Below, in pieces: positions 8,864 through 64,000 of a DNA stretch of 64,000 bases; position 1 is the stretch's first letter; the number at the start of each line of letters is the position of its first letter. Origin of the DNA: Albula goreensis (lineage: Eukaryota; Chordata; Actinopteri; Albuliformes; Albulidae). A model generated the notes under the pieces. The model was not told the DNA's origin, did no database searches, and worked only from the letters and a program-made list of their open reading frames with translations. A program made the translations under genes and the position numbers. The DNA lies in assembly GCA_022829145.1 (NCBI GenBank), contig CM040744.1:6855001-6919000 (forward strand), given 5' to 3'.

Positions 8864-8876
8864 CTGCTTAAAAAAA
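8864..8876 (-). repeat. Monomer with small TGCTTA insertion
   Basis: After CACAACC this monomer reads TGCTTA and then a ten-base A run before CGTAAG, where others have CACAACCGAAAAAACG. TGCTTA occurs elsewhere in the unit (TTCTGCTTAAAATG), so this looks like a short template-switch insertion from within the repeat. Confidence 0.6.
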
Positions 8877-10633: not shown

Positions 10634-10656
10634 GAAAAGTCATACTTGATTTTCTG
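10634..10656 (-). repeat. Monomer with 23-bp repeat-derived insertion
   Basis: Between CGT and CGCGGACCTG, where the usual unit has only AAGC, there are 23 bp containing CATACTTGATTTTCTG. This is a close copy of the CAATACTTGATTTTTCTG segment found about 70 bp further along the unit. It fits an intra-repeat template switch; no foreign sequence is involved. Confidence 0.75.
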
Positions 10657-16779: not shown

Positions 16780-17045
16780 AGTTGAGCTCACAACCAAAAA
16801 AACGTAAGCCGGACCTGAAAAAGGATGAAAAATCGGACCCCCAACAATTCTTGATTTTTCTGCTTAAAATGATTGGACAGTACCTGCTGATAGTGGATAC
16901 GGAAGAAAATAGGAACCAGGAATGGATTAAATGGGGAGAAAACTCAAGGAATCAATTGAGCCCACAACTGAAAAAAACGTAAGTCGCGGACCTGAAAAAG
17001 TATGAAAAATCCGACCCCCAACAATTCTTGATTTTTTTGCTTAAA
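16780..17045 (-). repeat. Duplicated module D5, copy b
   Basis: Second copy of the 14500-14775 module, with the same AAGGATG, AACTCAAGGAATCAATTG and TTTTTTGCTT variants in order. It differs by losing CGCG in the first unit (AAGCCGGACC) and by having ACGTAAGTC where copy a has GCAAGTC. Confidence 0.75.
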
Positions 17046-17866
17046 ATGATTGGACAGTACCTGCTGATAGTGGATACGAAGAAAATAGGAACCAGGAATG
17101 GATTAAATGGGAGAAAACGCAAGGAATGAGTTGAGCCCACAAAAAAAAAACGTAAGCCATGGACCTGAAAAAGTATGAAAATCGGACCCCAACAATTCTT
17201 GATTTTTTCTTAAAATGATTGGACAGTACTTGCTGATAGTGGATACGAAGAAAATAGGAATCAAGGAATGGATTAAATGGAGAAAACGCAAGGAATCAGT
17301 TGAGCCCACAACCGAAAAAACATAAGCCGCGGACCTGAAAAAAGGATGAAAATCGGACCCCAACAATTCTTGATTTTTCTGCTTAAAATGATTGGACAGT
17401 ACTTGCTGATAGTGGATATGAAGAAAATAGGATCCAGGAATGGATTAAATGGGAGAAAACGCAAAGGAATGAGTTGAGCTCACAACCGAAAAAACGTAAG
17501 TCGCGGACCTGAAAAAAGTATGAAAAATCCGACCCCCAACAATTCTTGATTTTTCTGCTTAAAATGATTGGACAGTACTTGCTGATAGTGGATACGAAGA
17601 AAATAGGAACCAGGAATGGATTAAATGGGAGAAAACGCAAGAATCAGTTGAGCCCACAACCGAAAAAAAAAACGTAAGCCGCGGACCTGAAAAAAAGTAT
17701 GAAAATCGGACCCCAACAATTCTTGATTTTTCTGCTTAAAATGATTGGACAGTACTTGCTGATAGTGGATACGAAGAAAATAGGAACCAGGAATGGATTA
17801 AATGGGAGAAAACGAAGGAATGAAGTTGAGCCCACAAAAAAAAAAACGAAACCCGCGGACCTGAAA

Positions 17867-31050: not shown

Positions 31051-32768
31051 ATCCATTCCTGGTTCCTATTTTCTTCGTATCCACTATCAGCAGGTACTGT
31101 CCAATCATTTTAAGCAGAAAAATCAAGAATTGTTGGGGGTCCGATTTTTCATACTTTTTTCAGGTCCGCGGCTTACGTTTTTTTCGGTTGTGAGCTCAAC
31201 TCATTCCTTGCGTTTTCTCCCATTTAATCCATTCCTGGTTCCTATTTTCTTCATATCCACTATCAGCAGGTACTGTCCAATCATTTTAAGCAGAAAAATC
31301 AAGAATTGTTGGGGTCCGATTTTTCATACTTTTTTCAGGTCCGCGGCTTACGTTTTTTTCAGTTGTGTGGCTCAACTCATTCCTTGCGTTTTTTCTCCCA
31401 TGTAATCCATTCCTTGATCCTATTTTCTTCGTATCCACTATCAGCAGGTACTGTCCAATCATTTTAAGCAGAAAAATCAAGTATTGTTGGGGGTCCGATT
31501 TTTCATACTTTTTTCAGGTCCGCGGCTTACGTTTTTTTCAGTTGTGGGCTCAACTCATTCCTTGCGTTTTCTCCCATTTAATCCATTCCTGGTTCCTATT
31601 TTCTTCGTATCCACTATCAGCAGGTACTGTCCAATCATTTTAAGCAGAAAAATCAAGTATTGTTGGGGGTCCGATTTTTCATACTTTTTTCAGGTCCGCG
31701 GCTTACGTTTTTTCAGTTGTGGCTCAACTCATTCCTTGCGTTTTCTCCCATTTAATCCATTCCTGGTTCCTATTTTCTTCGTATCCACTATCAGCAGGTA
31801 CTGTCCAATCATTTTAAGCAGAAAAATCAAGAATTGTTGGGGTCCGATTTTTCAGACTTTTTTCAGGTCCGCGGCTTACGTTTTTTCAGTTGTGAGCTCA
31901 ACTCATTCCTTGCGTTTTCCCATTTAATCCATTCCTTTATCCTATTTTCTTCGTATCCACTATCAGCAGGTACTGTCCAATCATTTTAAGCAGAAAAATC
32001 AAGAATTGTTGGGGGTCCGATTTTTCATACTTTTTTCAGGTCCGCGGCTTACGTTTTTTTCAGTTGTGGGCTGAACTCATTCCTTGCGTTTTCTCCCATT
32101 TAATCCATTCCTGGTTCCTATTTTCTTCGTATCCACTATCAGCAGGTACTGTCCAATCATTTTAAGCAGAAAAATCAAGTATTGTTGGGGTCCGATTTTT
32201 CATACTTTTTTCAGGTCCGCGACTTTACGTTTTTTCAGTTGTGGGCTCAACTCATTCCTTGCGTTTTCTCCCATTTAATCCATTCCTGGTTCCTATTTTC
32301 TTCGTATCCACTATCAGCAGGTACTGTCCAATCATTTTAAGCAGAAAAATCAAGAATTGTTGGGGGTCCGATTTTTCATACTTTTTCAGGTCCGCGGCTT
32401 ACGTTTTTTTCAGTTGTGAGCTCAACTCATTCCTTGCGTTTTCCCATTTAATCCATTCCTGGTTCCTATTTTCTTCGTATCCACTATCAGCAGGTACTGT
32501 CCAATCATTTTAAGCAGAAAAATCAAGAATTGTTGGGGGTCCGATTTTTCATACTTTTTTCAGGTCCGCGGCTTACGTTTTTTCAGTTGTGGGCTCAACT
32601 CATTCCTTGCGTTTTCTCCCATTTAATCCATTCCTTGTTCCTATTTTCTTCGTATCCACTATCAGCAGGTACTGTCCAATCATTTTAAGCAGAAAAATCA
32701 AGTATTGTTGGGGGTCCGATTTTTCATACTTTTTTCAGGTCCGCGACTTACGTTTTTTTTTCAGTTGT

Positions 32769-32908
32769 GGGCTCAACTCATTCCTTGCGTTTTCCCCATT
32801 TAATCCATTCCTGGTTCCTATTTTCTTCGTATCCACTATCAGCAGGTACTGTCCAATCATTTTAAGCAGAAAAATCAAGAATTGTTGGGGGTCCGATTTT
32901 TCACTTGT
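32769..32908 (+). repeat. Truncated 140-bp monomer (36-bp internal deletion)
   Basis: GGGCTCAACTC starts at 32591, 32769, 32909 and 33085, giving spacings of 178, 140 and 176. The short unit reads GATTTTTCAC then directly TTGTGGGCTC, so the segment with the first T run, CAGGTCCGCGG, CTTACG and the second T run is lost. Correcting for these 36 bp brings offsets across this point back to whole numbers of monomers. Confidence 0.9.
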
Positions 32909-33899
32909 GGGCTCAACTCATTCCTTGCGTTTTCTCCCATTTAATCCATTCCTGGTTCCTATTTTCTTCGTATCCACTATCAGCAGGTACTGTCCAATCA
33001 TTTTAAGCAGAAAAATCAAGAATTGTTGGGGTCCGATTTTTCATACTTTTTTTCAGGTCCGCGGCTTACGTTTTTTTCAGTTGTGGGCTGAATTCATTCC
33101 TTGCATTTTCTCCCATTTAATCCATTCCTGGTTCCTATTTTCTTCGTATCCACTATCAGCAGGTACTGTCCAATCATTTTAAGCAGAAAAATCAAGTATT
33201 GTTGGGGTCCGATTTTTCATACTTTTTTCAGGTCCGCGACTTGCGTTTTTTTTCAGTTGTGGGCTCAACTCATTCCTTGCGTTTTCTCCCATTTAATCCA
33301 TTCCCGGTTCCTATTTTCTTCGTATCCACTATCAGCAGGTACTGTCCAATCATTTTAAGCAGAAAAATCAAGAATTGTTGGGGGTCCGATTTTTCATACT
33401 TTTTCAGGTCCGCGGCTTACGTTTTTTTCAGTTGTGGGCTGAACTCATTCCTTGCGTTTTCTCCCATTTAATCCATTCCTGGTTCCTATTTTCTTCGTAT
33501 CCACTATCAGCAGGTACTGTCCAATCATTTTAAGCAGAAAAATCAAGAATTGTTGGGGGTCCGATTTTTCATACTTTTTTCAGGTCCGCGGCTTACGTTT
33601 TTTCAGTTGTGGGCTCAACTCATTCCTTTGCGTTTTCTCCCATTTAATCCATTCCTTGATCCTATTTTCTTCGTATCCACTATCAGCAGGTACTGTCCAA
33701 TCATTTTAAGCAGAAAAATCAAGAATTGTTGGGGGTCCGATTTTTCATACTTTTTCAGGTCCGCGGCTTACGTTTTTTCAGTTGTGAGCTCAACTCATTC
33801 CTTGCATTTTCTCCCATTTAATCCATTCCTGGTTCCTATTTTCTTCGTTTCCACTATCAGCAGGTACTGTCCAATCATTTTAAGCAGAAAAATCAAGAA

Positions 33900-34075
33900 T
33901 TGTTGGGGGTCCGATTTTTCATACTTTTTTCAGGTCCGCGGCTTACGTTTTTTTCAGTTGTGAGCTCAACTCATTCCTTGCGTTTTCTCCCATTTAATCC
34001 ATTCCTGGTTCCTATTTTCTTCGTATCCACTATCAGCAGGTACTGTCCAATCATTTTAAGCAGAAAAATCAAGAA
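33900..34075 (+). repeat. Representative 176-bp satellite monomer
   Basis: One full period in an undisturbed stretch, flanked on both sides by units of exactly 176 bp. An idealised unit has about 36 A, 41 C, 29 G and 70 T (40% GC, strong T over A skew). Counted from AATCCATTCC, features are GCAGGTACTGTCCAATCATT at 41-60, GGGGGTCCG at 86-94, T runs at about 96-100, 106-111 and 129-135, CCGCGG at 117-122, CAGTTGTG at 136-143 and GAGCTC at 143-148. As 176 is not a multiple of 3, the reading frame shifts with every unit. Confidence 0.93.
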
Positions 34076-34424
34076 TTGCTGGGGGTCCGATTTTTCATAC
34101 TTTTTTCAGGTCCGCGGCTTACGTTTTTTTCAGTTGTGAGCTCAACTCATTCCTTGCGTTTTCTCCCATGTAATCCATTCCTTGATCCTATTTTCTTCGT
34201 ATCCACTATCAGCAGGTACTGTCCAATCATTTTAAGCAGAAAAATCAAGTATTGTTGGGGGTCCGATTTTTCATACTTTTTTCAGGTCCGCGGCTTACGT
34301 TTTTTCAGTTGTGGGCTCAACTCATTCCTTTGCGTTTTCTCCCATTTAATCCATTCCTGGTTCCTATTTTCTTCGTATCCACTATCAGCAGGTACTGTCC
34401 AATCATTTTAAGCAGAAAAATCAA

Positions 34425-36300
34425 GTATTGTTGGGGGTCCGATTTTTCATACTTTTTCAGGTCCGCGACTTACGTTTTTTTTTCAGTTGTGAGGCTCAAC
34501 TTCATTCCTTGCGTTTTCTCCCATTTAATCCATTCCTGGTTCCTATTTTCTTCGTATCCACTATCAGCAGGTACTGTCCAATCATTTTAAGCAGAAAAAT
34601 CAAGAATTGTTGGGGGTCCGATTTTTCATACTTTTTTCAGGTCCGCGTTTACGTTTTTTTCAGTTGTGGCTCAACTCATTCCTTGCGTTTTCTCCCATTT
34701 AATCCATTCCTTTATCCTATTTTCTTCGTATCCACTATCAGCAGGTACTGTCCAATCATTTTAAGCAGAAAAATCAAGAATTGTTGAGGGTCCGATTTTT
34801 CATACTTTTTTCAGGTCCGCGGCTTACGTTTTTTTCAGTTGTGGGCTGAATTCATTCCTTGCATTTTCTCCCATTTAATCCATTCCTGGTTCCTATTTTC
34901 TTCGTATCCACTATCAGCAGGTACTGTCCAATCATTTTAAGCAGAAAAATCAAGTATTGTTGGGGGTCCGATTTTTCATACTTTTTTCAGGTCCGCGACT
35001 TGCTTTTTTCAGTTGTGGGCTCAATTCATTCCTTGCGTTTTCTCCCATTTAATCCATTCCTGGTTCCTATTTTCTTCGTATCCACTATCAGCAGGTACTG
35101 TCCAATCATTTTAAGCAGAAAAATCAAGAATTGTTGGGGTCCGATTTTTCATACTTTTTCAGGTCCGCGGCTTACGTTTTTTTTCGGTTGTGGGCTCAAC
35201 TCATTCCTTGCGTTTTCTCCCATTTAATCCATTCCTGGTTCCTATTTTCTTCGTATCCACTATCAGCAGGTACTGTCCAATCATTTTAAGCAGAAAAATC
35301 AAGAATTGTTGGGGGTCCGATTTTTCATACTTTTTCAGGTCCGCGACTTACGTTTTTTTTTCAGTTGTGGGCTCAACTCATTCCTTGCGTTTTCTCCCAT
35401 TAATCCATTCCTGTTTCCTATTTTCTTCGTATCCACTATCAGCAGGTACTGTCCAATCATTTTAAGCAGAAAAATCAAGAATTGTTGGGGGTCCGATTTT
35501 TCATACTTTTTTCAGGTCCGCGGCTTACGTTTTTTTCAGTTGTGAGCTGAACTCATTCCTTGCGTTTTCTCCCATTTAATCCATTCCTGGTTCCTATTTT
35601 CTTCGTATCCACTATCAGCAAGTACTGTCCAATCATTTTAAGCAGAAAAATCAAGAATTGTTGGGGGTCCGATTTTTCATACTTTTTTCAGGTCCGCGGC
35701 TTACGTTTTTTCGGTTGTGGGCACAACTCATTTTTTGCGTTTTCTCCCATGTAATCCATTCCTTGATCCTATTTTCTTCGTATCCACTATCAGCAGGTAC
35801 TGTCCAATCATTTTAAGCAGAAAAATCAAGAATTGTTGGGGGTCCGATTTTTCATACTTTTTTCAGGTCCGCGGCTTACGTTTTTTTTTCGTTGTGAGCT
35901 CAACTCATTCCTTGCGTTTTCTCCCATTTAATCCATTCCTGGTTCCTATTTTCTTCGTATCACTATCAGCAGGTACTGTCCAATCATTTTAAGCAGAAAA
36001 ATCAAGAATTGTTGGGGGTCCGATTTTTCATACTTTTTTCAGGTCCGCGACTTACGTTTTTTCGGTTGTGAGCTCAACTCATTCCTTGCGTTTTCTCCCA
36101 TTTAATCCATTCCTGGTTCCTATTTTCTTCATATATCCACTATCAGCAGGTACTGTCCAATCATTTTAAGCAGAAAAATCAAGAATTGTTGGGGGTCCGA
36201 TTTTTCATACTTTTTTCAGGTCCGCGGCTTACGTTTTTTTTTCTTTTGTGAGCTCAACTCATTCCTTGCGTTTTCTCCCATGTAATCCATTCCTTGATCC
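34425..36300 (+). repeat. Segmental duplication D2, copy b
   Basis: Second copy of 28665-30540. GGGCTGAATTC is at 34843 (offset 5761), CCCATTAATCC at 35396 (5759), and CATGTAATCC at about 35746 and 36278 (5759 and 5761). Adding the 36-bp deletion at 32.9 kb gives 33 monomers. Differences include GAGGCTCAACTTC at about 34490, GGGCACAACTCATTTTTTGC at 35718 in place of GAGCTCAACTCATTCC, and CGTATCACTATC near 35955. Confidence 0.87.
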
Positions 36301-38458
36301 TATTTTCTTCGTATCCACTATCAGCAGGTACTGTCCAATCATTTTAAGCAGAAAAATCAAGTATTGTTGGGGGTCCGATTTTTCATACTTTTTTCAGGTC
36401 CGCGGCTTACGTTTTTTTTTTTTCAGTTGTGAGCTCAACTCATTCCTTGCGTTTTCTCCCATTTAATCCATTCCTGGTTCCTATTTTCTTCGTATCCACT
36501 ATCAGCAGGTACTGTCCAATCATTTTAAGCAGAAAAATCAAGTATTGTTGGGGGTCCGATTTTTCATACTTTTTTCAGGTCCGCGCTTACGTTTTTTTCA
36601 GTTGTGGGCTCAACTCATTCCTTGCGTTTTCTCCCATTTAATCCATTCCTGGTTCCTATTTTCTTCGTATCCACTATCAGCAGGTACTGTCCAATCATTT
36701 TAAGCAGAAAAATCAAGAATTGTTGGGGGTCCGATTTTTCATACTTTTTTCAGGTCCGCGGCTTACGTTTTTTTCAGTTGTGGGCTCAACTCATTCCTTG
36801 CGTTTTCTCCCATTTAATCCATTCCTTTTCCTATTTTCTTCGTATCCACTATCAGCAGGTACTGTCCAATCATTTTAAGCAGAAAAATCAAGAATTGTTG
36901 GGGTCCGATTTTTCATACTTTTTCAGGTCCGCGGCTTACGTTTTTTTTTCAGTTGTGGGCTCAACTCATTCCTTGCGTTTTCTCCCATTTAATCCATTCC
37001 TGGTTCCTATTTTCTTCGTATCCACTATCAGCAGGTACTGTCCAATCATTTTAAGCAGAAAAATCAAGAATTGTTGGGGTCCGATTTTTCATACTTTTTC
37101 AGGTCCGCGACTTGCGTTTTTTTCAGTTGTGGGCTCAACTCATTCCTTGCGTTTTCTCCCATTTAATCCATTCCTGGTTCCTATTTTCTTCGTATCCACT
37201 ATCAGCAGGTACTGTCCAATCATTTTAAGCAGAAAAATCAAGAATTGTTGGGGGTCCGATTTTTCATACTTTTTCAGGTCCGCGGCTTACGTTTTTTTCA
37301 GTTGTGGGCTCAACTCATTCCTTGCGTTTTCTCCCATTTAATCCATTCCTGGTTCCTATTTTCTTCGTATCCACTATCAGCAGGTACTGTCCAATCATTT
37401 TAAGCAGAAAAATCAAGAATTGTTGGGGGTCCGATTTTTCATACTTTTTTCAGGTCCGCGGCTTACGTTTTTTCAGTTGTGGGCTCAACTCATTCCTTGC
37501 GTTTTCTCCCATTTAATCCATTCCTGGTTCCTATTTTCTTCTTATCCACTATCAGCAGGTACTGTCCAATCATTTTAAGCAGAAAAATCAAGTATTGTTG
37601 GGGGTCCGATTTTTCATACTTTTTTCAGGTCCGCGGCTTACGTTTTTTTCTGTTGTGAGCTCAACTCATTCCTTGCGTTTTCTCCCATGTAATCCATTCC
37701 TTGATCCTATTTTCTTCGTATCCACTATCAGCAGGTACTGTCCAATCATTTTAAGCAGAAAAATCAAGAATTGTTGGGGGTCCGATTTTTCATACTTTTT
37801 TTTCAGGTCCGCGGCTTACGTTTTTTTCAGTTGTGGGCACAACTCATTCCTTGCGTTTTCTCCCATTTAATCCATTCCTGGTTCCTATTTTCTTTTGTAT
37901 CCACTATCAGCAGGTTCTGTCGAATCATTTTAAGCAGAAAAATCAAGAATTGTTGGGGGTCGGATTTTTCAGACATTTTTCAGGTCCGCGGCTTACGTTT
38001 TTTTCGGTTGTAGGCTCAACTGATTCCTTCTGTTTTCTCCCATTTAATCCATTCTTGGTTCTTATTTTCTTTGTATCCAATATCAGCAAGTACTGTCCAA
38101 TCATTTTAAGCAGAAAAATCAAGAATTGTTGGGGGTCCGATTTTTCAGACATTTTTTTTTTCAGGTCCGCGGCTTACGTTTTTTTCGGTTGTGGGCACAA
38201 CTGATTCCTTGCGTTTTCTCCCATTTAATCCATTCCTGGTTACTTTTTTCTTCGTATCCACTATCAGCAGGTACTGTCCAATCATTTTAAGCAGAAAAAT
38301 CAAGAATTGTTGGGGGTCCGATTTTTCATACTTTTTTCAGGTCCGCGGCTTACGTTTTTTTCAGTTGTGGGCACAACTCATTCCTTGCGTTTTCTCCCAT
38401 TTAATCCATTCCTGGTTCCTATTTTCTTCGTATCCACTGTCAGCAGGTACTGTCCAAT

Positions 38459-38537
38459 CATTTTAAGCAGAAAAATCAAGAATTGTTGGGGGTCCGATTC
38501 ATTTTAAGCAGAAAATCAAAATTGTTGGGGTCCGATT
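38459..38537 (+). repeat. Local tandem duplication inside one monomer
   Basis: The segment from CATTTTAAGCAG to GGGTCCGATT is present twice: about 41 bp at 38459-38499 and about 38 bp at 38500-38537. The second copy has shorter A and G runs (GAAAATCAAAATTG, TTGGGGTCC). Both end in GATT and the following segment begins CATT, compatible with a slippage or microhomology event. Confidence 0.85.
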
Positions 38538-38699
38538 TTTCATACTTTTTCAGGTCCGCGGCTTACGTTTTTTCAGTTGTGAGCTCAACTCATTCCTTGC
38601 GTTTTCTCCCATTTAATCCATTCCTGGTTCCTATTTTCTTCGTATCCACTATCAGCAGGTACTGTCCAATCATTTTAAGCAGAAAAATCAAGAATTGTT

Positions 38700-39064
38700 G
38701 GTGGTCCGATTTTTCATACTTTTTCAGTCCGCGGCTTACGTTTTTTCGGGTTGTGGGAACAACTCGTGATCCTAAATTCTCTGTTTCCACTGTCAGCAAG
38801 TACTGACCAATCATTTTTAGAAGAAAAATCAAGAACTGTTGGTCCGATTTTCATACTTTTTCAGGTCCATACACTGTTGTGAGCTTCAACTGATTTGCGT
38901 TTTCCCATGTAATCCATTCTTGATCCTATTTTTTGTATCTCACTATCAGCAGTAGCTGTCCAATCATTTTAGCAGAAAATCAAGAATTGTGGGGTCCGAT
39001 TTTTCAGACTTTTTCAGGTCCGCGGCTGAAGCTTTTTTTCAGTTGTGGGCTCAACTGATTCCTG
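38700..39064 (+). repeat. Eroded monomers next to the orientation switch
   Basis: Two to three monomers markedly more divergent than elsewhere in the block. One lacks about 40 bp between GGGAACAACTC and GTGATCC, then reads CTAAATTCTCTGTTTCC. Another lacks the T run and CCGCGG (CAGGTCCATACACTGTTGTG) and part of CATTCCTTGCG (CTGATTTGCG). CAGTAGCTGTCC and GGCTGAAGC are also private. The core CCAATCATTTT is kept in each. Confidence 0.85.
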
Positions 39065-39085
39065 AGTCTGAAAAATCGGACCCCA
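38990..39085. repeat. Gapless satellite orientation switch with inverted repeat
   Basis: Array direction changes from forward to reverse without any N. GGGGTCCGATTTTTCAGACT (38991-39010) is matched by its exact complement at 39065-39084; one more base pair extends this to 21 bp. The spacer is 54 bp (39011-39064), containing CAGGTCCGCGG, GGCTGAAGC and GGGCTCAACTGATTCCT. Beyond the 21 bp the arms remain similar as satellite monomers. The sequence 39.1-39.3 kb is not the mirror image of 38.76-38.93 kb, which argues against a simple fold-back read artefact. Confidence 0.88.
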
Positions 39086-40816
39086 ACAAACCTTGTTTTT
39101 TCTGCTTAAAATGATTGGACAGTACTTGCTGATAGTGGATACGAAGAAAATAGGAACCAGGAATGGATTAAATGGGAGAAAATGCAAGGAATTTGTTCTG
39201 CCCAGAACCGAAAAAAAGCCGCGATGACCTGAAAAAGTCTGAAAAAATCGGACTTCAACAATTCTTGATTTTTCTGCTTAAATGATTGGACAGTACCTGC
39301 TGATAGTGGATACGAAGAAAATAGGAACCAGGAATGGATTAAATGGGAGAAAACTCCACGAATCAATTGAGCCCACAACTGAAAAAACGTAAGTCGCGGA
39401 CCTGAAAAAAGTATGAAAATCGGACCCCAACAATTCTTGATTTTTCTGCTTAAAATGATTGGACAGTACTTGCTGATAGTGGATACGAAGAAAATAGGAT
39501 CAAGGAATGGATTAAATGGGAGAAAACGCAAGGAATGAGTTGATCTCACAACCGAAAACGTAAGCCATGGACCTGAAAAAGTCTGAGAAATCGGACCCCC
39601 AACAATTCTTGATTTTTCTGCTTAAAATGATTGGACAGTACTTGCTGACAGTGGATACGAAGAAAATAGGAAACAGGAATGGATTAATTGGGAGAAAACG
39701 CAACGAATGAGTTGAGCCCACAACCGAAAAAAACGTAAGTCGCGGACCTGAAAACAGTATGAAAAATCCGACCCCAACAATTCTTGATTTTTCTGCTTAA
39801 ATGATTGGACAGTACCTGCTGATAGTGGATACGAAGAAAATAGGAACCAGGAATGGATTAAATGGGAGAAAACGCAAGGAATGAATTGAGCCCACAACCG
39901 AAAAAAACGTAAGCCGCGGACCTGAAAACAGTATGAAAAATCCGACCCCGAACAATTCTTGATTTTTCTGCTTAAAATGATTGGACAGTACCTGCTGATA
40001 GTGGATACGAAGAAAATAGGAACCAGGAATGGATTAAATGGGAGAAAACGCAAGGAATGAATTGAGCCCACAACTGAAAAAAAGCAAGTCGCGGACCTGA
40101 AAAAAGTATGAAAAATCGGACCACCAACAATACTTGATTTTTCTGCTTAAAATGATTGGACAGTACCTGCGGATAGTGGATACGAAGAAAATAGGAACCA
40201 GGAATGGATTAAATGGGAGAAAATGCAAGGAATGAATTCAGCCCACAAACCGAAAAAACGTAAGTCATGATCTGAAAATAGTCCGAGAAATCGGACCACC
40301 AACAATACTTGATTTTTCTGCTTAAAATGATTGGACAGTACCTGCGGATAGTGGATACGAAGAAAATAGGAACCAGGAATGGATTAAATGGGAGAAAACG
40401 CAAGGAATGAATTGAGCCCACAACCGAAAAAAAAGTAAGCCGCGGACCTGAAAAAAGTATGAAAAATCCGACCCCCAACAATACTTGATTTTTCTGTTTA
40501 AAATGATTGGACAGTACCTGCTGATAGTGGATACGAAGAAAATAGGATCAAGGAATGGATTACATGGGAGAAAACGCAAGGAATCAGTTGAGCCCACAAC
40601 CGAAAAAAACGTAAGCCGCGGACCTGAAAAAAGTATGAAAAATCGGACCCCCAGCAATTCTTGATTTTTCTGCTTAAAATGACTGGACAGTACCTGCTGT
40701 TAGTGGATATGAAGAAGATAGGAACCAGGAATGGATTAAATGGGAGAAAACGCAAGGATTGAGTTGAGCTCACAACCGAAAAAAACGTAAGCCGTGACCT
40801 GAAAAAAGTATGAAAA
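39065..40816 (-). repeat. Satellite array, reverse, about 10 monomers
   Basis: Continuous with the preceding block but in the A-rich orientation. The first monomers are divergent: ACAAACCTTG, AAGGAATTTGTTCTGCCCAG, GCCGCGATGACCTG, CGGACTTCAAC and ACTCCACGAATCAATTG. Later units are closer to the norm. Two neighbours share CTGAAAACAGTATG (about 39753 and 39928). The block ends at a gap. Confidence 0.95.
40080..40400 (-). repeat. Inverted relative of module D3 with one-monomer local doubling
   Basis: GCAAGTCGCGG, GGACCACCAAC, AATACTTG, CCTGCGGATAG, AAATGCAAGG and GAATTCAGCCC appear in the order expected for the complement of 20280-20480. The GGACCACCAAC/CCTGCGGATAG pair occurs twice, CCTGCGGATAG at 40166 and 40341, one unit apart. 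The intervening unit is divergent (AAGTCATGATCTGAAAATAG, CCGAGAAATCGG). Confidence 0.75.
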
Positions 40817-41316: not shown

Positions 41317-43754
41317 AAAAAGTATGAAAAATCGGACCCCCAACAATTCTTGATTTTTCTGCTTAAAATGATTGGACAGTACCTGCTGATAGTGGATACA
41401 GAGAAAATAGGATCACAGGAATGGATTAAATGGGAGAAAACGCAAGGAATGAGTTGAGCCCACAACTGAAAAAACGTAAGCCGCGGACCTGAAAAAAGTA
41501 TGAAAAATCGGACCCCAGCAATTCTTGATTTTTCTGCTTAAAATGATTGGACAGTACTTGCTGATAGTGGATACGAAGAAAATAGGAACCAGGAATGGAT
41601 TAAATGGGAGAAAACGCAAGGAATGAGTTGAGCCCACAACCGAAAAAACGTAAGCATGGACCTGAAAAAAGTATGAAAAATCCGACCCCCAACAATTTTT
41701 GATTTTTCTGCTTAAAATGATTGGACAGTACCTGCTGATAGTGGATACGAAGAAAATAGGAACCAGGAATGGATTAAATGGGAGAAAACGCAAGGAATGA
41801 GTTGAGCCCACAACCGAAAAAAACGTAAGTCATGGACCTGAAAAAAGTATGAAAAATCGGACCCCCAACAATTCTTGATTTTTCTGCTTAAAATGATTGG
41901 ACAGTACTTGCTGATAGTGGATACAAAGAAAATAGGAACCAGGAATGGATTAAATGGGAGAAAACGCAAGGAATGAGTTGAGCCCACAACTGAAAAAACG
42001 TAAGCCGCGGACCTGAAAAAAGTATGAAAAATCGGACCCCAACAATTCTTGATTTTTCTGCTTAAAATGATTGGACAGTACCTGCTGATAGTGGATACGA
42101 AGAAAATAGGAACCAGGAATGGATTAAATGGGAGAAAACGCAAGGAATGAGTTGAGCTCACAACTGAAAAAACGTAAGTCGCGGACCTGAAAAAAGTATG
42201 AAAAATCGGACCCCCAACAATTCTTGATTTTTCTGCTTAAAATGATTGGACAGTACTTGCTGATAGTGGATACGAAGAAAATAGGAACCAGGAATGGATT
42301 AAATGGGAGAAAACGCAAGGAATGAGTTGAGCCCACAACTGAAAAAAAAACGTAAGCGGACCTGAAAAAAGTATGAAAAATCCGACCCCAACAATTCTTG
42401 ATTTTTCTGCTTAAAATGATTGGACAGTACCTGCTGATAGTGGATACGAAGAAAATAGGAACCAGGAATGGATTAAATGGGAGAAAACGCAAGGAATGAG
42501 TTGAGCCCACAACTGAAAAAACGTAAGCCGCGGACCTGAAAAAAGTATGAAAAATCGGACCCCCAACAATACTTGATTTTTCTGCTTAAAATGATTGGAC
42601 AGTACCTGCTGATAGTGGATACGAAGAAAATAGGAACCAGGAATGGATTAAATGGGAGAAAACGCAAGGAATGAGTTGAGCCCACAACTGAAAAAAAACG
42701 TAAGCCGTGGACCTGAAAAAAGTATGAAAAATCGGACCCCCAACAATTCTTGATTTTTCTGCTTAAAATGATTGGACAGTACCTGCTGATAGTGGATACG
42801 AAGAAAATAGGAACCAGGAATGGATTAAATGGGAGAAAACGCAAAGGAATGAGTTGAGCCCACAACTGAAAAAAACGTAAGCCGCGGACCTGAAAAAAGT
42901 ATGAAAAATCGGACCCCAACAATTCTTGATTTTTCTGCTTAAAATGATTGGACAGTACTTGCTGATAGTGGATACGAAGAAAATAGGAACCAGGAATGGA
43001 TTAAATGGGAGAAAACGCAAGGAATGAGTTGTGCCCACAACTGAAAAAAACGTAAGCCGCGGACCTGAAAAAAGTATGAAAAATCGACCCCAACAATACT
43101 TGATTTTTCTGCTTAAAATGATTGGACAGTACCTGCTGATAGTGGATACGAAGAAAATAGGATCAAGGAATGGATTACATGGGAGAAAACGCAAGGAATG
43201 AGTTGAGCCACAACCGAAAAAAAAAACGTAAGCCGCGGACCTGAAAAAAGTATGAAAAATCGGACCCCAACAATTCTTGATTTTTCTGCTTAAAATGATT
43301 GGACAGTACCTGCTGATAGTGGATACGAAGAAAATAGGAACCAGGAATGGATTAAATGGGAGAAAACGCAAGGAATGAGTTGAGCCACAACAGAAAAAAC
43401 GTAAGCCAAATGCGGACCTGAAAAAAGTATGAAAAAAAATCGGACCCCCAACAATTCTTGATTTTTCTGCTTAAAATGATTGGACAGTACCTGCTGATAG
43501 TGGATACGAAGAAAATAGGAACCAGGAATGGATTAAATGGGAGAAAACAGAAGGAATGAGTTGAGCCCACAACTGAAAAAACGTAAGCCGCGGACCTGAA
43601 AAAGTCTGAAAAATCGACCCCCAACAATTCTTGATTTTTCTGCTTAAAATGATTGGACAGTACCTGCTGATAGTGGATACAAAGAAAATAGGAACCAGGA
43701 ATGGATTAAATGGGAGAAAACGCAAGGAATGAGTGAGCCCACAACTGAAAAAAC

Positions 43755-43795
43755 GTAAGCCCTGAAAAAGTCGGACCTGAAAAAAACCTGTATGA
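43755..43795 (-). repeat. Monomer with internal rearrangement
   Basis: Reads GTAAGCCCTGAAAAAGTCGG, then ACCTGAAAAAAACC, then TGTATG, where the usual unit has GTAAGCCGCGGACCTG, an A run and GTATG. A CCTGAAAAAG piece is duplicated and the CGCG is lost, consistent with slippage between the repeated CCTG and A runs. Confidence 0.75.
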
Positions 43796-45679
43796 AAAAT
43801 CGGACCCCCAACAATTCTTGATTTTTCTGCTTAAAATGATTGGACAGTACCTGCTGATAGTGGATACGAAGAAAATAGGAACCAGGAATGGATTAAATGG
43901 GAGAAAACGAAGGAATGAGTTGAGCCTACAACCGAAAAAACGTAAGCCGCGGACCTGAAAAAAGTATGAAAAATCGGACCCCCAACAATTCTTGATTTTT
44001 CTGCTTAAAATGATTGGACAGTACCTGCTGATAGTGGATACAAAGAAAATAGGAACCAGGAATGGATTAAATGGGAGAAAACGCAAGGAATGAGTTGAGC
44101 CCACAACTGAAAAAACGTAAGTCCGCGGACCTGAAAAAAGTATGAAAAATCGGACCCCAACAATTCTTGATTTTTCTGCTTAAAATGATTGGACAGTACC
44201 TGCTGATAGTGGATACGAAGAAAATAGGATCAAGGAATGGATTACATGAGAAAACACGCAAGGAATGAGTTGAGCTCACAACAGAAAAAACGTAAGCCGC
44301 GGACCTGAAAAAAGTATGAAAAATCGGACCCCCAACAATACTTGATTTTTCTACTTAAAATGATTGGACAGTACCTGCTGATAGTGGATACGAAGAAAAT
44401 AGGAACCAGGAATGGATTAAATGGGAGAAAACGCAAGGAATGAATTGAGCTCACAACTGAAAAAAACGTAAGCCGCGGACCTGAAAAAAGTATGAAAAAT
44501 CGGACCCCAACAATACTTGATTTTTCTCCTTAAAATGATTGGACAGTACCTGCTGATAGTGGATACGAAGAAAATAGGATCAAGGAATGGATTAAATGGG
44601 AGAAAACGCAAGGAATGAGTTGTGCCCACAACTGAAAAAAACGTAAGCCGCGGACCTGAAAAAAGTCTGAAAAATCGGACCCCCAACAATTCTTGATTTT
44701 TCTGCTTAAAATGATTGGACAGTACCTGCTGATAGTGGATACGAAGAAAATAGGATCAAGGAATGGATTACATGGGAGAAAACGCAAGGAATGAGTTGAG
44801 CTCACAACTGAAAAAAAACGTAAGCCGCGGACCTGAAAAAAGTATGAAAAATCGGACCCCCAACAATTTTTGATTTTTCTGCTTAAAATGATTGGACAGA
44901 ACTTGCTGATATTGGATACGAAGAAAATAGGAACCAGAATTGGATTACATGGGAGAAAACGCAAGGAATGAGTTGAGCTCACAACAGAAAAAAACGTAAG
45001 CCGCGGACCTGAAAAAAGTATGAAAAATCGGACCCCCAACAATTTTTGATTTTTCTGCTAAAGATGATTGGACAGTACCTACTGATAGTGGATACGAAGA
45101 AAATAGGAACCAGGAATGGATTAAATGGGAGAAAACGCAAGGAATGAGTTGAGCCCACAACTGAAAAAACGTAAGCCGGACCTGAAAAAAGTATGAAAAA
45201 TCGGACCCCCAACAATTCTTGATTTTTCTGCTTAAAATGATTGGACAGTACCTGCTGATAGTGGATACGAAGAAAAATAGGAACCAGGAATGGATTAAAT
45301 GGGAGAAAACGCAAAGGAATGAGTTGTGCCCACAACTGAAAAAAACGTAAGCCGCGGACCTGAAAAAAGTATGAAAAATCGGACCCCCAACAATTCTTGA
45401 TTTTTCTGCTTAAAATGATTGGACAGTACCTGCTGATAGTGGATACGAAGAAAATAGGAACCAGGAATGGATTAAATGGGAGAAAAACGCAAGGAATGAG
45501 TTGTGCCCACAACTGAAAAAAACGTAAGCCGCGGACCTGAAAAAAGTATGAAAAATCGGACCCCCAACAATACTTGATTTTTCTGCTTAAAATGATTGGA
45601 CAGTACCTGCTGATAGTGGATACGAAGAAAATAGGAACAAGGAATGGATTAAATGGGAGAAAATGCAAGGAATGAGTTG

Positions 45680-45701
45680 TGCAGCTCACAACTGAAAAAA
45701 A
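45680..45701 (-). repeat. Hybrid monomer joining two variant forms
   Basis: GAGTTGTGCAGCTCACAACTG combines the left part of the TTGTGCCCAC variant with the right part of the GAGCTCAC variant, with three extra bases. Both parental forms are common nearby. It looks like an unequal exchange or conversion junction, though a sequencing error cannot be excluded. Confidence 0.6.
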
Positions 45702-47104
45702 CGTAAGTCATGGACCTGAAAAAGTATGAAAAATCGGACCCCAACAATTCTTGATTTTTCTGCTTAAAATGATTGGACAGTACCTGCTGATAGTGGATAC
45801 GAAGAAAATAGGAACCAGGAATGGATTAAATGGGAGAAAACGCAAAATGAGTTGTGCCCACAACTGAAAAAAAACGTAAGCCGCGGACCTGAAAAAAGTA
45901 TGAAAAATCGGACCCCAACAATTCTTGATTTTTCTGCTTAAAACGATTGGACAGTACCTGCTGATATTGGATACGAAGAAAATAGGAACCAGGAATGGAT
46001 TAAATGGGAGAAAACGCAAGGAATGAGTTGAGCCCACAACCGAAAAAAAACGTAAGCCGCGGACCTGAAAAAAAAGTATGAAAAATCGGACCCCCAACAA
46101 TTCTTGATTTTTCTGCTTAAAATGATTGGACAGTACTTGCTGATAGTGGATACAAAGAAAATAGGAACCAGGAATGGATTAAATGGGAGAAAACAGAAGG
46201 AATGAGTTGAGCCTCACAACTGAAAAAACGTAAGCCGCGGACCTGAAAAAAAGTATGAAAAATCGGACCCCAACAATTCTTGATTTTTCTGCTTAAAATG
46301 ATTGGACAGTACCTGCTGATAGTGGATACAAAGAAAATAGGAACCAGGAATGGATTAAATGGGAGAAAACGCAAGGAATGAGTTGTGCCCACAACTGAAA
46401 AAAACGTAAGCCGCGGACCTGAAAAAAGTATGAAAAATCGGACCCCAACAATTCTTGATTTTTCTGCTTAAAATGATTGGACAGTACCTGCTGATAGTGG
46501 ATACGAAGAAAATAGGAACCAAGGAATGGATTAAATGGGAGAAAACGCAAGGAATGAGTTGAGCCCACAACTGAAAAAACGTAAGTCGCGGACCTGAAAA
46601 AAGTATGAAAAATCGGACCCCAACAATTCTTGATTTTTCTGCTTAAAATGATTGGACAGTACCTGCTGATAGTGGATACAAAGAAAATAGGAACCAGGAA
46701 TGGATTAAATGGGAGAAAACGCAAGGAATGAGTTGTGCCCACAACTGAAAAAAACGTAAGCCATGGACCTGAAAAAAGTATGAAAAATCGACCCCAACAA
46801 TTCTTGATTTTTCTGCTTAAAATGATTGGACAGTACCTGCTGATAGTGGATACGAAGAAAATAGGATCAAGGAATGGATTAAATGGGAGAAAACGCAAGG
46901 AATGAGTTGAGCTCACAACATAAAAAAAACGTAAGCCGCGGACCTGAAAAAAGTATGAAAAATCGGACCCCGAACAATACTTGATTTTTCTGCTTAAAAT
47001 GATTGGACAGTACCTGCTGATAGTGGATACGAAGAAAATAGGAACCAGGAATGGATTAAATGGGAGAAAACGCAAGGAATGAGTTGAGCTCACAACTGAA
47101 AAAA

Positions 47105-47116
47105 AATGGAGGAAAA
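47105..47116 (-). repeat. Monomer with small insertion
   Basis: The A run after CACAACTG is interrupted and extended: an A run, TGGAGG, then AAAACGTAAG. TGGAGG resembles the ATGGGAG segment of the unit. The event adds about 11 bp. Confidence 0.6.
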
Positions 47117-50100
47117 CGTAAGCCGCGGACCTGAAAAAGTATGAAAAATCGGACCCCCAACAATACTTGATTTTTCTCCTTAAAATGATTGGACAGTACC
47201 TGCTGATAGTGGATACGAAGAAAATAGGAACCAGGAATGGATTAAATGGGAAAAACGCAAGGAATGAGTTGAGCCACAACTGAAAAAAACGTAAGCCGCG
47301 GACCTGAAAAAGTATGAAAAATCGGACCCCCAACAATTCTTGATTTTTCTGCTTAAAATGATTGGACAGTACCTGCTGATAGTGGATACGAAGAAAATAG
47401 GATCAAGGAATGGATTACATGGGAGAAAACGCAAGGAATGAGTTGAGCTCACAACCGAAAAAACGTAAGCCGCGGACCTGAAAAAAGTATGAAAAATCGG
47501 ACCCCCAACAATTTTTGATTTTTCTGCTTAAAATGATTGGACAGTACTTGCTGATAGTGGATACGAAGAAAATAGGAACCAGGAATGGATTAAATGGGAG
47601 AAAACGCAAGGAATGAGTTGAGCTCACAACAGAAAAAAACGTAAGCCGCGGACCTGAAAAAAGTATGAAAAATCGGACCCCCAACAATTTTGATTTTTCT
47701 GCTTAAAATGATTGGACAGTACCTGCTGATAGTGGATACGAAGAAAATAGGAACCAGGAATGGATTAAATGGGAGAAAAACGCAAGGAATGAGTTGAGCC
47801 CACAACTGAAAAAAACGTAAGCCGCGGACCTGAAAAAAGTATGAAAAATCGGACCCCCAACAATACTTGATTTTTCTGCTTAAAATGATTGGACAGTACC
47901 TGCTGACAGTGGATACGAAGAAAATAGGAACCAGGAATGGATTAAATGGGAGAAAACGCAAAAATGAGTTGTGCCCACAACTGAAAAAAACGTAAGCCGC
48001 GGACCTGAAAAAAGTATGAAAAATCGGACCCCCAACAATTCTTGATTTTTCTGCTTAAAATGATTGGACAGTACCTGCTGATAGTGGATACGAAGAAAAT
48101 AGGAACCAGGAATGGATTAAATGGGAGAAAACGCAAGGAATGAGTTGAGCTCACAACTGAAAAAACGTAAGTCCGCGGACCTGAAAAAGTATGAAAAATC
48201 GGACCCCAAACAATTCTTGATTTTTCTGCTTAAAATGATTGGACAGTACCTGCTGATAGTGGATACGAAGAAAATAGGAACAAGGAATGGATTAAATGGG
48301 AGAAAACGCAAGGAATGAGTTGAGCCCACAACTGAAAAAAACGTAAGCCGCGGACCTGAAAAAAAGTATGAAAAATCGGACCCCCAACAATTCTTGATTT
48401 TTCTGCTTAAAATGATTGGACAGTACCTGCTGATAGTGGATACGAAGAAAATAGGAACCAGGAATGGATTAAATGGGAGAAAACGCAAGGAATGAGTTGA
48501 GCCACAACTGAAAAAACGTAAGCCGCGGACCTGAAAAAAGTATGAAAAATCGGACCCCAACAATTTTGATTTTTCTGCTTAAAATGATTGGACAGTACCT
48601 GCTGATAGTGGATACGAAGAAAATAGGAACCAAGGAATGGATTAAATGGGAGAAAACGCAAGGAATGAGTTGAGCTCACAACTGAAAAAAACGTAAAGCC
48701 GCGGACCTGAAAAAAGTATGAAAAATCGGACCCCAACAATTCTTGATTTTTCTGCTTAAAATGATTGGACAGTACCTGCTGATAGTGGATACGAAGAAAA
48801 TAGGATCAAGGAATGGATTAAATGGGAGAAAACGCAAGGAATGAGTTGAGCTCACAACCGAAAAAACGTAAGCCGCGGACCTGAAAAAAGTATGAAAAAT
48901 CGGACCCCAACAATTCTTGATTTTTCTGCTTAAAATGATTGGACAGTACCTGCTGATAGTGGATACGAAGAAAATAGGAACCAGGAATGGATTAATGGGA
49001 GAAAACGCAAGGAATGAGTTGAGCCCACAAACTGAAAAAACGTAAGTCGCGGACCTGAAAAAAGTATGAAAATCGGACCCCAACAATTTTTGATTTTTCT
49101 GCTTAAAATGATTGGACAGTACTTGCTGATATTGGATACGAAGAAAATAGGAACCAGGAATGGATTAAATGGGAGAAAACGAAGGAATGAGTTGAGCCCA
49201 CAACTGAAAAAAAAAACGTAAGCCGCGGACCTGAAAAAAGTATGAAAAATCGGACCCCAACAATTCTTGATTTTTCTGCTTAAAATGATTGGACAGTACC
49301 TGCTGATAGTGGATACAAAGAAAATAGGATCAAGGAATGGATTACATGGGAGAAAACGCAAGGAATGAGTTGAGCCCACAACCGAAAAAACGTAAGCCGC
49401 GGACCTGAAAAAGTATGAAAAATCGACCCAACAATTTTGATTTTTCTGCTTAAAATGATTGGACAGTACCTGCTGATAGTGGATACGAAGAAAATAGGAA
49501 CCAGGAATGGATTAAATGGGAGAAAAATCGCAGGAATGAGTTGAGCCCACAACTGAAAAAAAAAATGTAAGTCATGGACCTGAAAAAAGTATGAAAAATC
49601 GGACCCCAACAATTCTTGATTTTTCTGCTTAAAATGATTGGACAGTACCTGCTGATAGTGGATACGAAGAAAATAGGAACCAGGAATGGATTAAATGGGA
49701 GAAAACGCAAGGAATGAGTTGTGCCCACAACTGAAAAAAACGTAAGCAGCGGACCTGAAAAAAGTATGAAAAATCGACCCCAACAATTCTTGATTTTTCT
49801 GCTTAAAATGATTGGACAGTACCTGCTGATAGTGGATACGAAGAAAATAGGAACCAAGAATGGATTAAATGGGAGAAAACGCAAGGAATGAGTTGAGCTC
49901 ACAACTGAAAAAAACGTAAGCCGCGGACCTGAAAAAGGTATGAAAAAATCGGACCCCCAACAATTCTTGATTTTTCTGCTTAAAATGATTGGACAGTACC
50001 TGCTGATAGTGGATACGAAGAAAATAGGAACCAGGAATGGATTAAATGGGAGAAAACGCAAGGAATGAGTTGAGCCCACAACTGAAAAAACGTAAGCCGC

Positions 50101-51430
50101 GGACCTGAAAAAAGTATGAAAAATCGGACCCCAACAATTCTTGATTTTTCTGCTTAAAATGATTGGACAGTACCTGCTGATAGTGGATACGAAGAAAATA
50201 GGAACAAGGAATGGATTAAATGGGAGAAAACGCAAGGAATGAGTTGAGCCAACAACTGAAAAAACGTAAGCCGCGGACCTGAAAAAAGTATGAAAAATCG
50301 ACCCAACAATTTTGATTTTTCTGCTTAAAATGATTGGACAGTACCTGCTGATAGTGGATACGAAGAAAATAGGAACCAGGGAATGGATTAAATGGGAGAA
50401 AACGCAAGGAATGAGTTGAGCCCACAACTGAAAAAAACGTAAAGCAAGTCGGGACCTGAAAAAAGTATGAAAAATCGGACCCCAACAATACTTGATTTTT
50501 CTGCTTAAATGATTGGACAGTACCTGCTGATAGTGGATACGAAGAAAATAGGAACCAGGAATGGATTAAATGGGAGAAAACGCAAGGAATGAGTTGAGCT
50601 CACAACTGAAAAAAACGTAAGTCAGCGGACCTGAAAAAAGTATGAAAAATCGGACCCCAACAATTCTTGATTTTTCTGCTTAAAATGATTGGACAGTACC
50701 TGCTGATAGTGGATACGAAGAAAATAGGAACCAGGAATGGATTAAATGGGAGAAAATGCAAGAATGAGTTGAGCTCACAACTGAAAAAACGTAAGACGCG
50801 GACCTGAAAAAAGTATGAAAAATCGGACCCCCAACAATTCTTTTGATTTTTCTGCTTAAAATGATTGGACAGTACTTGCTGATAGTGGATACGAAGAAAA
50901 TAGGAACCAGGAATGGATTAAATGGGAGAAAACGCAAGGAATGAGTTGAGCTCACAACTGAAAAAAACGTAAGCCGCGGACCTGAAAAAAGTATGAAAAA
51001 TCGACCCCCAACAATTCTTGATTTTTCTGCTTAAAATGATTGGACAGTACCTGCTGATAGTGGATACGAAGAAAATAGGAACCAGGAATGGATTAAATGG
51101 GAGAAAACGCAAGGAATGAGTTGAGCCCACAACTGAAAAAACGTAAGTCAAGGCGGACCTGAAAAAAGTATGAAAAATCGGACCCCCAACAATTCTTGAT
51201 TTTTCTGCTTAAAATGATTGGACAGTACCTGCTGATAGTGGATACGGAGAAAATAGGAACCAGGAATGGATTAAATGGGAGAAAACGCAAGGAATGAGTT
51301 GAGCTCACAACCGAAAAAACGTAAGTCAACGCGGACCTGAAAAAGTATGAAAAATCGACCCCAACAATTCTTGATTTTTCTGCTTAAAATGATTGGACAG
51401 TACCTGCTGATAGTGGATACGAAGAAAATA

Positions 51431-51640
51431 CTGGAACCTGAGGAATGGATTAAATGGAGAAAAAGGCAGGCTCACCTGAATGATTAAATGAGAAAACTCA
51501 AGGAATGAGTTGAGCACTTGCCTCAAACTGAAAAAAAAAGAAAGCGGACCTGAAAAAAGCTGAAAAATCGACCCTTTTGAACTTTTCTGCTTAAAATGAT
51601 TGGATGTACTGAAAATCGGACCCCAACAATTCTTTTGATT
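51431..51640 (-). repeat. Scrambled stretch: expanded monomer plus 57-bp fragment
   Basis: GATTGG occurs at 51391, 51598 and 51655, giving spacings of 207 and 57 bp rather than 176. The long unit has CTGGAACCTGAGG, then AAAAAGGCAGGCTCACCTG and a second, altered copy of the GATTAAATGAGAAAACTC segment, then GAGCACTTGCCTCAAACTG. The short fragment goes from GATTGGATGTACT straight to GAAAATCGGACCCC, losing about 119 bp. TTCTTTTGATTTTTC just after it is also found near 50.84 kb. This is the most rearranged point of the block. Confidence 0.85.
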
Positions 51641-54600
51641 TTTCTGCTTAAAATGATTGGACAGTACCTGCTGATAGTGGATACGAAGAAAATAGGAACC
51701 AGGAATGGATTAAATGGGAGAAAACGCAAGAATGAGTTGAGCCCACAACTGAAAAAAACGTAAGCAGCGGACCTGAAAAAAGTATGAAAAATCGGACCCC
51801 CAACAATACTTGATTTTTCTGCTTAAAATGATTGGACAGTACCTGCTGATAGTGGATACGAAGAAAATAGGATCAAGGAATGGATTACATGGGAGAAAAC
51901 GCAAGGAATGAGTTGAGCTCACAACCAAAAAACGTAAGCCGCGGACCTGAAAAAAGTATGAAAAATCGGACCCCAACAATTCTTGATTTTTCTTCTTAAA
52001 ATGATTGGACAGTACCTGCTGATAGTGGATACAGAAGAAAATAGGATCAAGGAATGGATTAAATGGGAGAAAACGCAAGGAATGAGTTGAGCCCACAACC
52101 AAAAAAAAAAACGTAAGCCGCGGACCTGAAAAAAGTATGAAAAATCGGACCCCAACAATTCTTGATTTTTCTGCTTAAAATGATTGGACAGTACTTGCTG
52201 ATAGTGGATACGAAGAAAATAGGAACCAGGAATGGATTAAATGGGAGAAAACGCAAGAATGAGTTGAGCCCACAACTGAAAAAACGTAAGCCGCGGACCT
52301 GAAAAAAGTATGAAAAATCGGACCCCAACAATTCTTGATTTTTCTGCTTAAAATGATTGGACAGTACCTGCTGATAGTGGATACGAAGAAAATAGGAACC
52401 AGGAATGGATTAAATGGGAGAAAACGCAAGGAATGAGTTGAGCCCACAACCGAAAAAACGTAAGCCGCGGACCTGAAAAAGTATGAAAAATCGGACCCCA
52501 ACAATTCTTGATTTTTCTGCTTAAAATGATTGGACAGTACCTGCTGATAGTGGATACGAAGAAAATAGGAACCAGGAATGGATTAAATGGGAGAAAACGC
52601 AAGGAATGAGTTGAGCCCACAACTGAAAAAAAACGTAAGCCGCGGACCTGAAAAAAGTATGAAAAATCGGACCCCAACAATTCTTGATTTTTCTGCTTAA
52701 AATGATTGGACAGTACTTGCTGATAGTGGATACGAAGAAAATAGGAACCAGGAATGGATTAAATGGGAGAAAACAGAAGGAATGAGTTGAGCCACAACTG
52801 AAAAAAACGTAAGCCGGGACCTGAAAAAAGTATGAAAAATCGACCCCCAACAATACTTGATTTTTCTGCTTAAAATGATTGGACAGTACCTGCTGATAGT
52901 GGATACGAAGAAAATAGGATCAAGGAATGGATTACATGGGAGAAAATGCAAGGAATGAGTTGAGCTCACAACCGAAAAAAACGTAAGCCGCGGACCTGAA
53001 AAAAGTATGAAAAATCGGACCCCCAACAATTCTTGATTTTTTCTTAAAATGATTGGACAGTACCTGCTGATAGTGGATACGAAGAAAATAGGATCAAGGA
53101 ATGGATTAAATGGGAGAAAACGCAAGGAATGAGTTGAGCCCACAACCGAAAAAACGTAAGTCGCGGACCTGAAAAAAGTATGAAAAATCGGACCCCAAAC
53201 AATTCTTGATTTTTCTGCTTTAAAATGATTGGACAGTACTTGCTGATAGTGGATACAAGAAAAATAGGAACAGGAATGGATTAAATGGGAGAAAACGCAA
53301 TGAATGAGTTGAGCCCAAAACCGAAAAAACGTAAGCCGCATGGACCTGAAAAAAGTATGAAAAATCGGACCCCAACAATTCTTGATTTTTCTGCTTAAAA
53401 TGATTGGACAGTACCTGCTGATAGTGGATACGAAGAAAATAGGAACCAGGAATGGATTAAATGGGAGAAAACGCAAGGAATCAGTTGAGCCCACAACTGA
53501 AAAAACGTAAGCAAGCCGGACCTGAAAAAAGTATGAAAAATCGGACCCCAACAATACTTGATTTTTCTGCTTAAAATGATTGGACAGTACCTGCTGATAG
53601 TGGATACGAAGAAAATAGGAACCAGGAATGGATTAAATGGGAGAAAACGCAAGGAATGAGTTGAGCTCACAACTGAAAAAAACGTAAGCCGCGGACCTGA
53701 AAAAAGTATGAAAAATCGGACCCCAACAATTCTTGATTTTTCTGCTTAAAATGATTGGACAGTACCTGCTGATAGTGGATACGAAGAAAATAGGAACCAG
53801 GAATGGATTAAATGGGAGAAAACGCAAGAAATGAATTGAGCCACAACAAAAAAAAACGTAAGCCGCGGACCTGAAAAAAGTATGAAAAATCGACCCCAAC
53901 AATTCTTGATTTTTCTGCTTAAAATGATTGGACAGTACCTTCTGATAGTGGATACGAAGAAAATAGGAACCAGGAATGGATTAAATGGGAGAAAACGCAA
54001 GGAATGAGTTGAGCTCACAACTGAAAAAACGTAAGCCGCGGACCTGAAAAAGTATGAAAAATCGGACCCCAACAATTCTTGATTTTTCTGCTTAAAATGA
54101 TTGGACAGTACCTGCTGATAGTGGATACGAAGAAAATAGGAACCAGGAATGGATTAAATGGGAGAAAACGCAAGGAATGAGTTGAGCCACACAACTGAAA
54201 AAAAACGTAAGTCACGGACCTGAAAAAAGTATGAAAAATCGGACCCCCAACAATTCTTGATTTTTCTGCTTAAAATGATTGTACAGTACCTGCTGATAGT
54301 GGATACGAAGAAAATAGGAACCAGGAATGGATTACATGGGAGAAAACGCAAGGAATGAGTTGAGCCCACAACCAAAAAAAACGTAAGCCGCGGACCTGAA
54401 AAAGTATGAAAAATCGGACCCCAAACAATTCTTGATTTTTCTGCTTAAAATGATTGGACAGTACCTTGCTGACAGTGGAAACGAAGAAAATAGGAACCAG
54501 GAATGGATTAAATGGGAGAAAACGCGCAAGGAATGAGTTGAGCTCACAACTGAAAAAAAACGTAAGATGCGGACCTGAAAAAAGTATGAAAAATCGGACC

Positions 54601-63700: not shown

Positions 63701-64000
63701 GTAGAAAAATCAAGAATTGTTGGGGGTCCGATTTTTCACACTTTTTCAGGTCCGCGGCTTACGTTTTTTGTTGTGAGCTCAACTCATTCCTTTGCGTTTT
63801 CTCCCATTTAATCCATTCCTGTTCCTATTTTCTTCAGATCACTATCAGCAGGTACTGTCCAATCATTTTAAGCAGAAAAATCAAAATTGTTGGGGGTCCG
63901 ATTTTTCATAATTTTTTCAGGTCCGCGGCTTACGTTTTTTTCAGTTTGTGGGCACAACTCATTTTTTGCGTTTTCTCCCATTTAATCCATTCCTGGTTCC
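60718..64000 (+). repeat. Satellite array block 4, forward, divergent at its start
   Basis: About 19 monomers in the T-rich orientation, running off the window end. From 60718 to about 62060 units are clearly more diverged. CCAATCA starts at 60718, 60893, 61064, 61241 (with one inserted base), 61418, 61586, 61758, 61924 and 62094, so spacing runs from 166 to 177 bp. Private changes include CTTCATGATCC, GTTAGTTCATTTTTCTGCC, CTTCCCCCACTATC and AACTGGGCATTG. After about 62.1 kb units approach the norm. CACAACTCATTTTTTGCG, seen near 28.56, 31.01 and 35.72 kb, recurs at the far end (63.95 kb). Confidence 0.95.

Follow-up and report, generated by a model that had tools for sequence, protein, structure and literature searches.

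An orientation switch with eroded flanking monomers inside a 176-bp satellite array, plausibly an old boundary between opposed subarrays

In the window analysed here, a stretch of 64 kb, forward satellite monomers meet reverse monomers at 39064/39065, private changes are concentrated in the monomers next to this junction, and mirror homology between its two sides is absent. Since the erosion, taken as real, is strongest at the junction and a fold-back origin is rejected, the best reading is an old boundary, within one 176-bp satellite, between subarrays that face opposite ways, and we infer that such a boundary probably exists on the chromosome. The original prediction had thought an old inversion breakpoint plausible. 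Its observation was correct and concerns a feature of an ordinary kind; an orientation boundary is retained, while a breakpoint in the strict sense is plausible but unproven, and the inverted repeat that accompanied the claim was over-valued.

If real, the junction would provide a base-resolved orientation boundary in a satellite array, on which nature itself tests the reach of homogenisation towards a place without further in-register exchange. A misjoin would instead serve as a warning that monomers beside a satellite junction may look eroded when they are unpolished. Neither outcome by itself alters knowledge of satellites. Moreover, the kind is known, degenerate units at satellite inversion sites having already been published for Tribolium madens, according to the accessible part of that report (PMC13081366).

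Organization of the satellite array

The whole window except for four gaps is a single tandem satellite with a unit of about 176 bp, as found by both TRF and wraparound alignment, which agree in assigning it to tandem satellite DNA with similar units arranged head to tail. Wraparound alignment to the 176-bp unit yielded 356 pieces, 347 of them full monomers, with a mean identity to the majority unit of 0.956; the divergence of copies from that unit is about 4.4%. A forward piece of 97 bp at the window start, from the contig before segment A, is followed by segments A (598-17866, reverse), B (18367-39064, forward, with 117 full monomers by wraparound alignment and TRF), C (39065-40816, reverse), D (41317-60217, reverse) and E (60718-64000, forward, running to the window end). 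Segments A, D and E each belong to a contig of their own, while B and C share one (18367-40816) that ends at a gap. All four gaps are exactly 500 N long, and orientation also changes at three of them. Uniform 500-N gaps are a typical product of Hi-C scaffolders, and orientation changes located at such gaps are therefore weak evidence. A BLAST search of the unit against the whole window (word 11, E 1e-3) gave 366 matches, among which there were no opposite-strand pieces embedded within segments.

Several further features of the array were recorded. Segment B (20,698 bp, forward) and segments C plus D (20,653 sequenced bp, reverse) are nearly equal in length despite the gaps that bound both, an equality that is probably a coincidence; the shared-variant diagonals between B and D (0.399, reversed control 0.394) show an excess of no more than a trace. 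Contig D contains a monomer with about 89 extra bases (51397-51660), and contig B one that is 35 bp short (32853-32993) and belongs to a two-copy 141-bp repeat; no inverted repeats were found at these irregular places (51300-51760 and 32700-33050). Block duplications occur within contigs, at 2491 / 12491 in A and at 28640 / 34399 and 30925 / 33697 in B. They consist of 8-monomer runs, 16 to 57 monomers apart, that have rare variants in common in the same order, and they score 0.58-0.65 against 0.35-0.38 for reversed controls, with none as strong between contigs. In D (58493-60217), a reversed-order control (0.622, near 58493 and 60058) exceeded every same-order diagonal of that segment (0.512), so no duplication is claimed for D; the high reversed-order score may be a chance cluster of like monomers.

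Searches for relatives of the sequence gave no matches. No RNA families reached gathering score in 36500-40816, and a literature text search with 14-17-mers of the unit found no paper. Two unit patterns had no exact match in collections of viral, prokaryotic and plasmid sequence, the junction pattern had none among viral contigs, and no DNA similar to 36516-37390 was found in plasmids or phages, absences that say little.

The orientation switch

As had been predicted, forward and reverse monomers meet at 39064/39065 in continuous sequence, the array passing from unit position 109 on the forward strand to position 54 on the reverse strand with no N. This is the sole contig-internal switch in the window, and no second one, which would be the partner breakpoint of a single inverted segment, was found there. 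The left side ends in GATTCCT, followed by a G and then by AGTCTG of the right side. The CCTGA at the junction is compatible with short microhomology to the reverse unit if an A run was lost, which is only suggestive. A 23-base string across the junction occurs once in the window, allowing up to 3 mismatches.

Erosion of the flanking monomers

The monomers flanking the junction belong to the most degenerate of the window. Ranked by changes per 100 bp among 353 of the 356 pieces (those of 100 bp or more), the monomer at 38807-38959 is 1st, 38666-38806 is 5th, 39119-39289 is 8th, and the truncated 38960-39064, which ends at unit position 109, is 12th; the remaining 11 of the top 15 include seven in E after its gap and one in C (40160-40334, rank 7). 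The eroded forward monomers occupy 38666-39064 and are preceded by an irregular 212-bp forward monomer at 38454-38665, the first irregular unit on the left, which carries a partial internal duplication (41-bp unit at 38458-38537 by TRF). On the reverse strand, erosion covers 39065-39289, comprising a partial monomer (39065-39118) and the one at 39119-39289. The expectation of two or three degenerate monomers on each side fits the left, with about 2.3, and was generous for the right, with about 1.3. On the left the erosion is sharply bounded, abrupt and ungraded. To the right of the strong erosion, the rest of C (39290-40816, reverse) stays moderately divergent, with variants mostly common to the rest of the array, and the bad monomer at 40160-40334 means that divergence is not confined to the junction. 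All of C is more divergent than bulk satellite.

Windows of 150 bp, scored by private substitutions plus indel events, place the junction at the top in a similar way. Three of the five worst non-overlapping windows lie there (starts 38757, 39138 and 38914), and the other two (starts 61076 and 61462) are both in E. The worst, starting at 38757, has 33 events against a mean of 2.8, a count that is inflated because the wraparound count splits longer deletions into several events; affine alignment resolves gaps of 9 and 24 bp at 38666-38806. With affine gaps, substitutions per kb reach 53.0 in the left core (38499-39064) and 66.4 in the right core (39065-39290), compared with 46.5 in the rest of C, 17.8 in 34000-38498 and 59.7 at the start of E; for A, D and the remainder of B the values are 16.3-27.6. 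Counting private substitutions only, the rate per kb is 17.7 in the left core and 31.0 in the right core, falls to 7.9 in the remainder of C and to 1.4-2.0 in A, B and D, and stands at 17.3 where E starts. The background for the erosion and private-change counts left out 38454-40816. The window has seven contig ends, of which the start of E alone matches the junction in erosion, a contrast that favours a real boundary; the B start and both D ends are clean, and both A ends and the C end are mild. The start of E (60718-62276) follows a 500-N gap with an apparent orientation change, has a transition:transversion count of 56:37, and may be a true array edge.

The main rival to an old boundary is a misjoin with poorly polished sequence, which we regard as possible though doubtful. 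In such an assembly or library chimera, two different satellite molecules would have been misjoined, one reversed relative to the other, close to where a short contig ends; reads would then fail to align across the join, and the polisher would leave raw errors that resemble erosion. The location fits this explanation and counts against a real boundary, the junction being known from one assembled contig only, 22,450 bp long, of which the switched part is the last 1,752 bp. The abrupt left edge of the erosion and the bad monomer at 40160-40334 also speak against a real boundary. Additionally, all core substitutions together have a transition:transversion count of 15:30, which differs from the rest (Fisher p 0.009) and approaches the 1:2 ratio that random errors would give. 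Deletions abound in the left core (19, of which 12 are in runs, vs 4 insertions), with many single-base contractions in 38807-39010, but the bulk is deletion-rich too, with deletions:insertions of 195:69 in A and 188:81 in D. When only private changes are counted, the spectra do not differ significantly from the rest, either in transitions and transversions (4:13 in the core vs 55:70 elsewhere, p 0.12) or in deletions and insertions (8:5 vs 59:99, p 0.14). Indels make up 13 of the 30 core private events and 158 of the 283 elsewhere, so that the core is not indel-rich by this measure. The 9- and 24-bp gaps and the clustered substitutions are also unlike simple homopolymer errors, and nothing foreign is seen inserted where the two sides meet.

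A real boundary is supported by the character of C beyond 39290, where most variants are shared with the array and the transition:transversion count (37:34) is like that of the bulk. Furthermore, the C monomer at 39985 has no substitution difference from the B monomer at 20381. The shared variants, the bulk-like spectrum and such close relatives of single monomers indicate that C is genuine satellite.

The inverted repeat and hairpin

A perfect 21-bp inverted repeat with a 54-nt spacer was said to mark the junction, and it is present as claimed, with arms at 38990-39010 and 39065-39085. The arms are ordinary monomer sequence read on both strands. When 500 random forward/reverse joins were drawn from bulk satellite, with no matching of phase, 94.2% contained, inside 130 bp on each side, a perfect inverted repeat that reached 21 bp or more. 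Within 400 bp on each side, the longest inverted repeat at the junction is 37 bp, and all 500 random joins had a longer one. DNA folding of 38930-39145 gave -74.8 kcal/mol, with a z of -17.7 against shuffles, a value that arises because two strands of one satellite face each other, and from nothing more. Among phase-matched random joins, 68 of 73 form a hairpin at least as stable as that of the junction; the 73 controls came from 100 picks, 27 of which gave no control because the unit position was missing or the stretch contained N. The repeat and its hairpin were accordingly rejected as a special element, given that random joins yield longer repeats and mostly equally or more stable hairpins. 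The inverted repeat is no more than chance gives for a forward/reverse satellite join and adds no weight to the breakpoint reading. It results from the orientation switch, and its shortness from the erosion. Conversely, repeats shorter than in all 500 joins, together with an unexceptional hairpin, indicate that the junction is more than a simple fusion of two clean stretches of bulk satellite.

Mirror homology across the junction

A fold-back (strand-switch) read, or an amplification hairpin, would make the right side the reverse complement of the left. The short inverted repeat and the hairpin-like geometry are what such an origin would leave, but we consider it scarcely credible, and the original prediction, which had argued against it on the ground that the two sides are not mirror copies, is upheld. 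By mean identity the mirror register comes last among 110 (0.923, against a mean of 0.937), in part because eroded monomers lie in that register, and it is 93rd of 110 by shared variants. Of the mirrored monomer pairs, 11 in all, only 4 exceed the average sharing of the C monomer with B, and 6 share nothing. For 10-monomer runs, C matches mirrored B at 0.9505 at most, and the reversed-order control at 0.9522. Shared-variant diagonals of C, with reversed controls in parentheses, are 0.285 (0.212) for B, 0.274 (0.247) for A, 0.207 (0.273) for D and 0.147 (0.144) for E, unlike the block duplications in A and B, which reach 0.648 and 0.59. Taken together, the mirror register, the run matches and the shared-variant diagonals refute a fold-back origin for the assembled sequence.

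More generally, no run in the window stands out as a source for C, the reversed-order controls being exceeded only slightly at best. When C was compared with the other segments by BLAST, the highest identity among the matches listed (the five longest per pair) was 91.6%, a set that does not by itself exclude shorter, closer matches. The private variant T73G was called in both 38960-39064 and 39119-39289; judged from the alignment, this is an alignment effect of a right-side deletion and not the mirror homology that it resembled.

A possible route to an eroded boundary

The formation of an old boundary between subarrays could begin with a rearrangement that joins two non-mirrored parts of the array in opposite orientation, possibly at a few bases of microhomology. 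This might be an inversion of which one breakpoint lies here, an insertion in inverted orientation or a template switch, and the data favour none of the three. What keeps satellite units alike is exchange and conversion among those that share an orientation. Units placed last ahead of a switch find in-register neighbours to one side alone, and so they drift. Unequal exchange and conversion between in-register units would thus reach the last units before the switch poorly, and junction units that escaped homogenisation would build up private changes, the erosion being proposed to result from poor homogenisation at array edges. On this reading the boundary would be old. From unequal-exchange theory and array-end studies, the edge units of tandem arrays carry more private changes than the homogenised interior. 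The edge here differs from that of such divergent array-edge monomers in being an orientation switch and not non-satellite DNA.

Comparison with known satellites

The honey bee (Apis mellifera) AluI satellite has, in the descriptions available to us, a 176-bp unit in tandem arrays linked to short-arm telomeres, with copies 3.9% from the canonical unit (PMC6454739, PMC11212449). The present satellite resembles this one (X57427) in its described unit length and low divergence; length alone is weak, and the link is only a lead.

A closer parallel comes from Tribolium madens, where, in the accessible part of the report, orientation switches are frequent within satellite arrays and one opposing unit at the inversion point is degenerate, by 23.5% or 10.7% (PMC13081366). 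Across 2044 and 3486 sites these junction units show 98.9% and 98.2% likeness, a conservation that gave the Tribolium case its interest, and raw HiFi reads confirmed the inversion sites; the authors state there that satellite macro-dyad symmetries have so far been documented only in Tribolium (PMC13081366). The window could conceivably hold a conserved, perhaps functional inversion site of this type, in which a specific degenerate unit recurs and large hairpins shape chromatin. It has the same anatomy at one site, and orientation also changes at three of the four gaps. Orientation would then alternate about every 20 kb (A reverse, B forward, C/D reverse, E forward), and with the eroded junction as a conserved inversion element this would amount to macro-dyad organisation like Tribolium's, perhaps in a lineage without a described case. 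We think this very unlikely, given that the junction string has a single copy within the 64-kb window, that the other switches fall on N gaps, and that most random joins form hairpins at least as stable (68 of 73). An old boundary between subarrays remains the reading that we prefer, and on it the comparison is a limited one. As in T. madens, so far as described in the accessible text (PMC13081366), subarrays of one array reverse their orientation and a degenerate unit marks the turning point, here as assembled. The differences are that one site is involved, both of its sides are eroded, the unit length is another, and the site is known from the assembled sequence.
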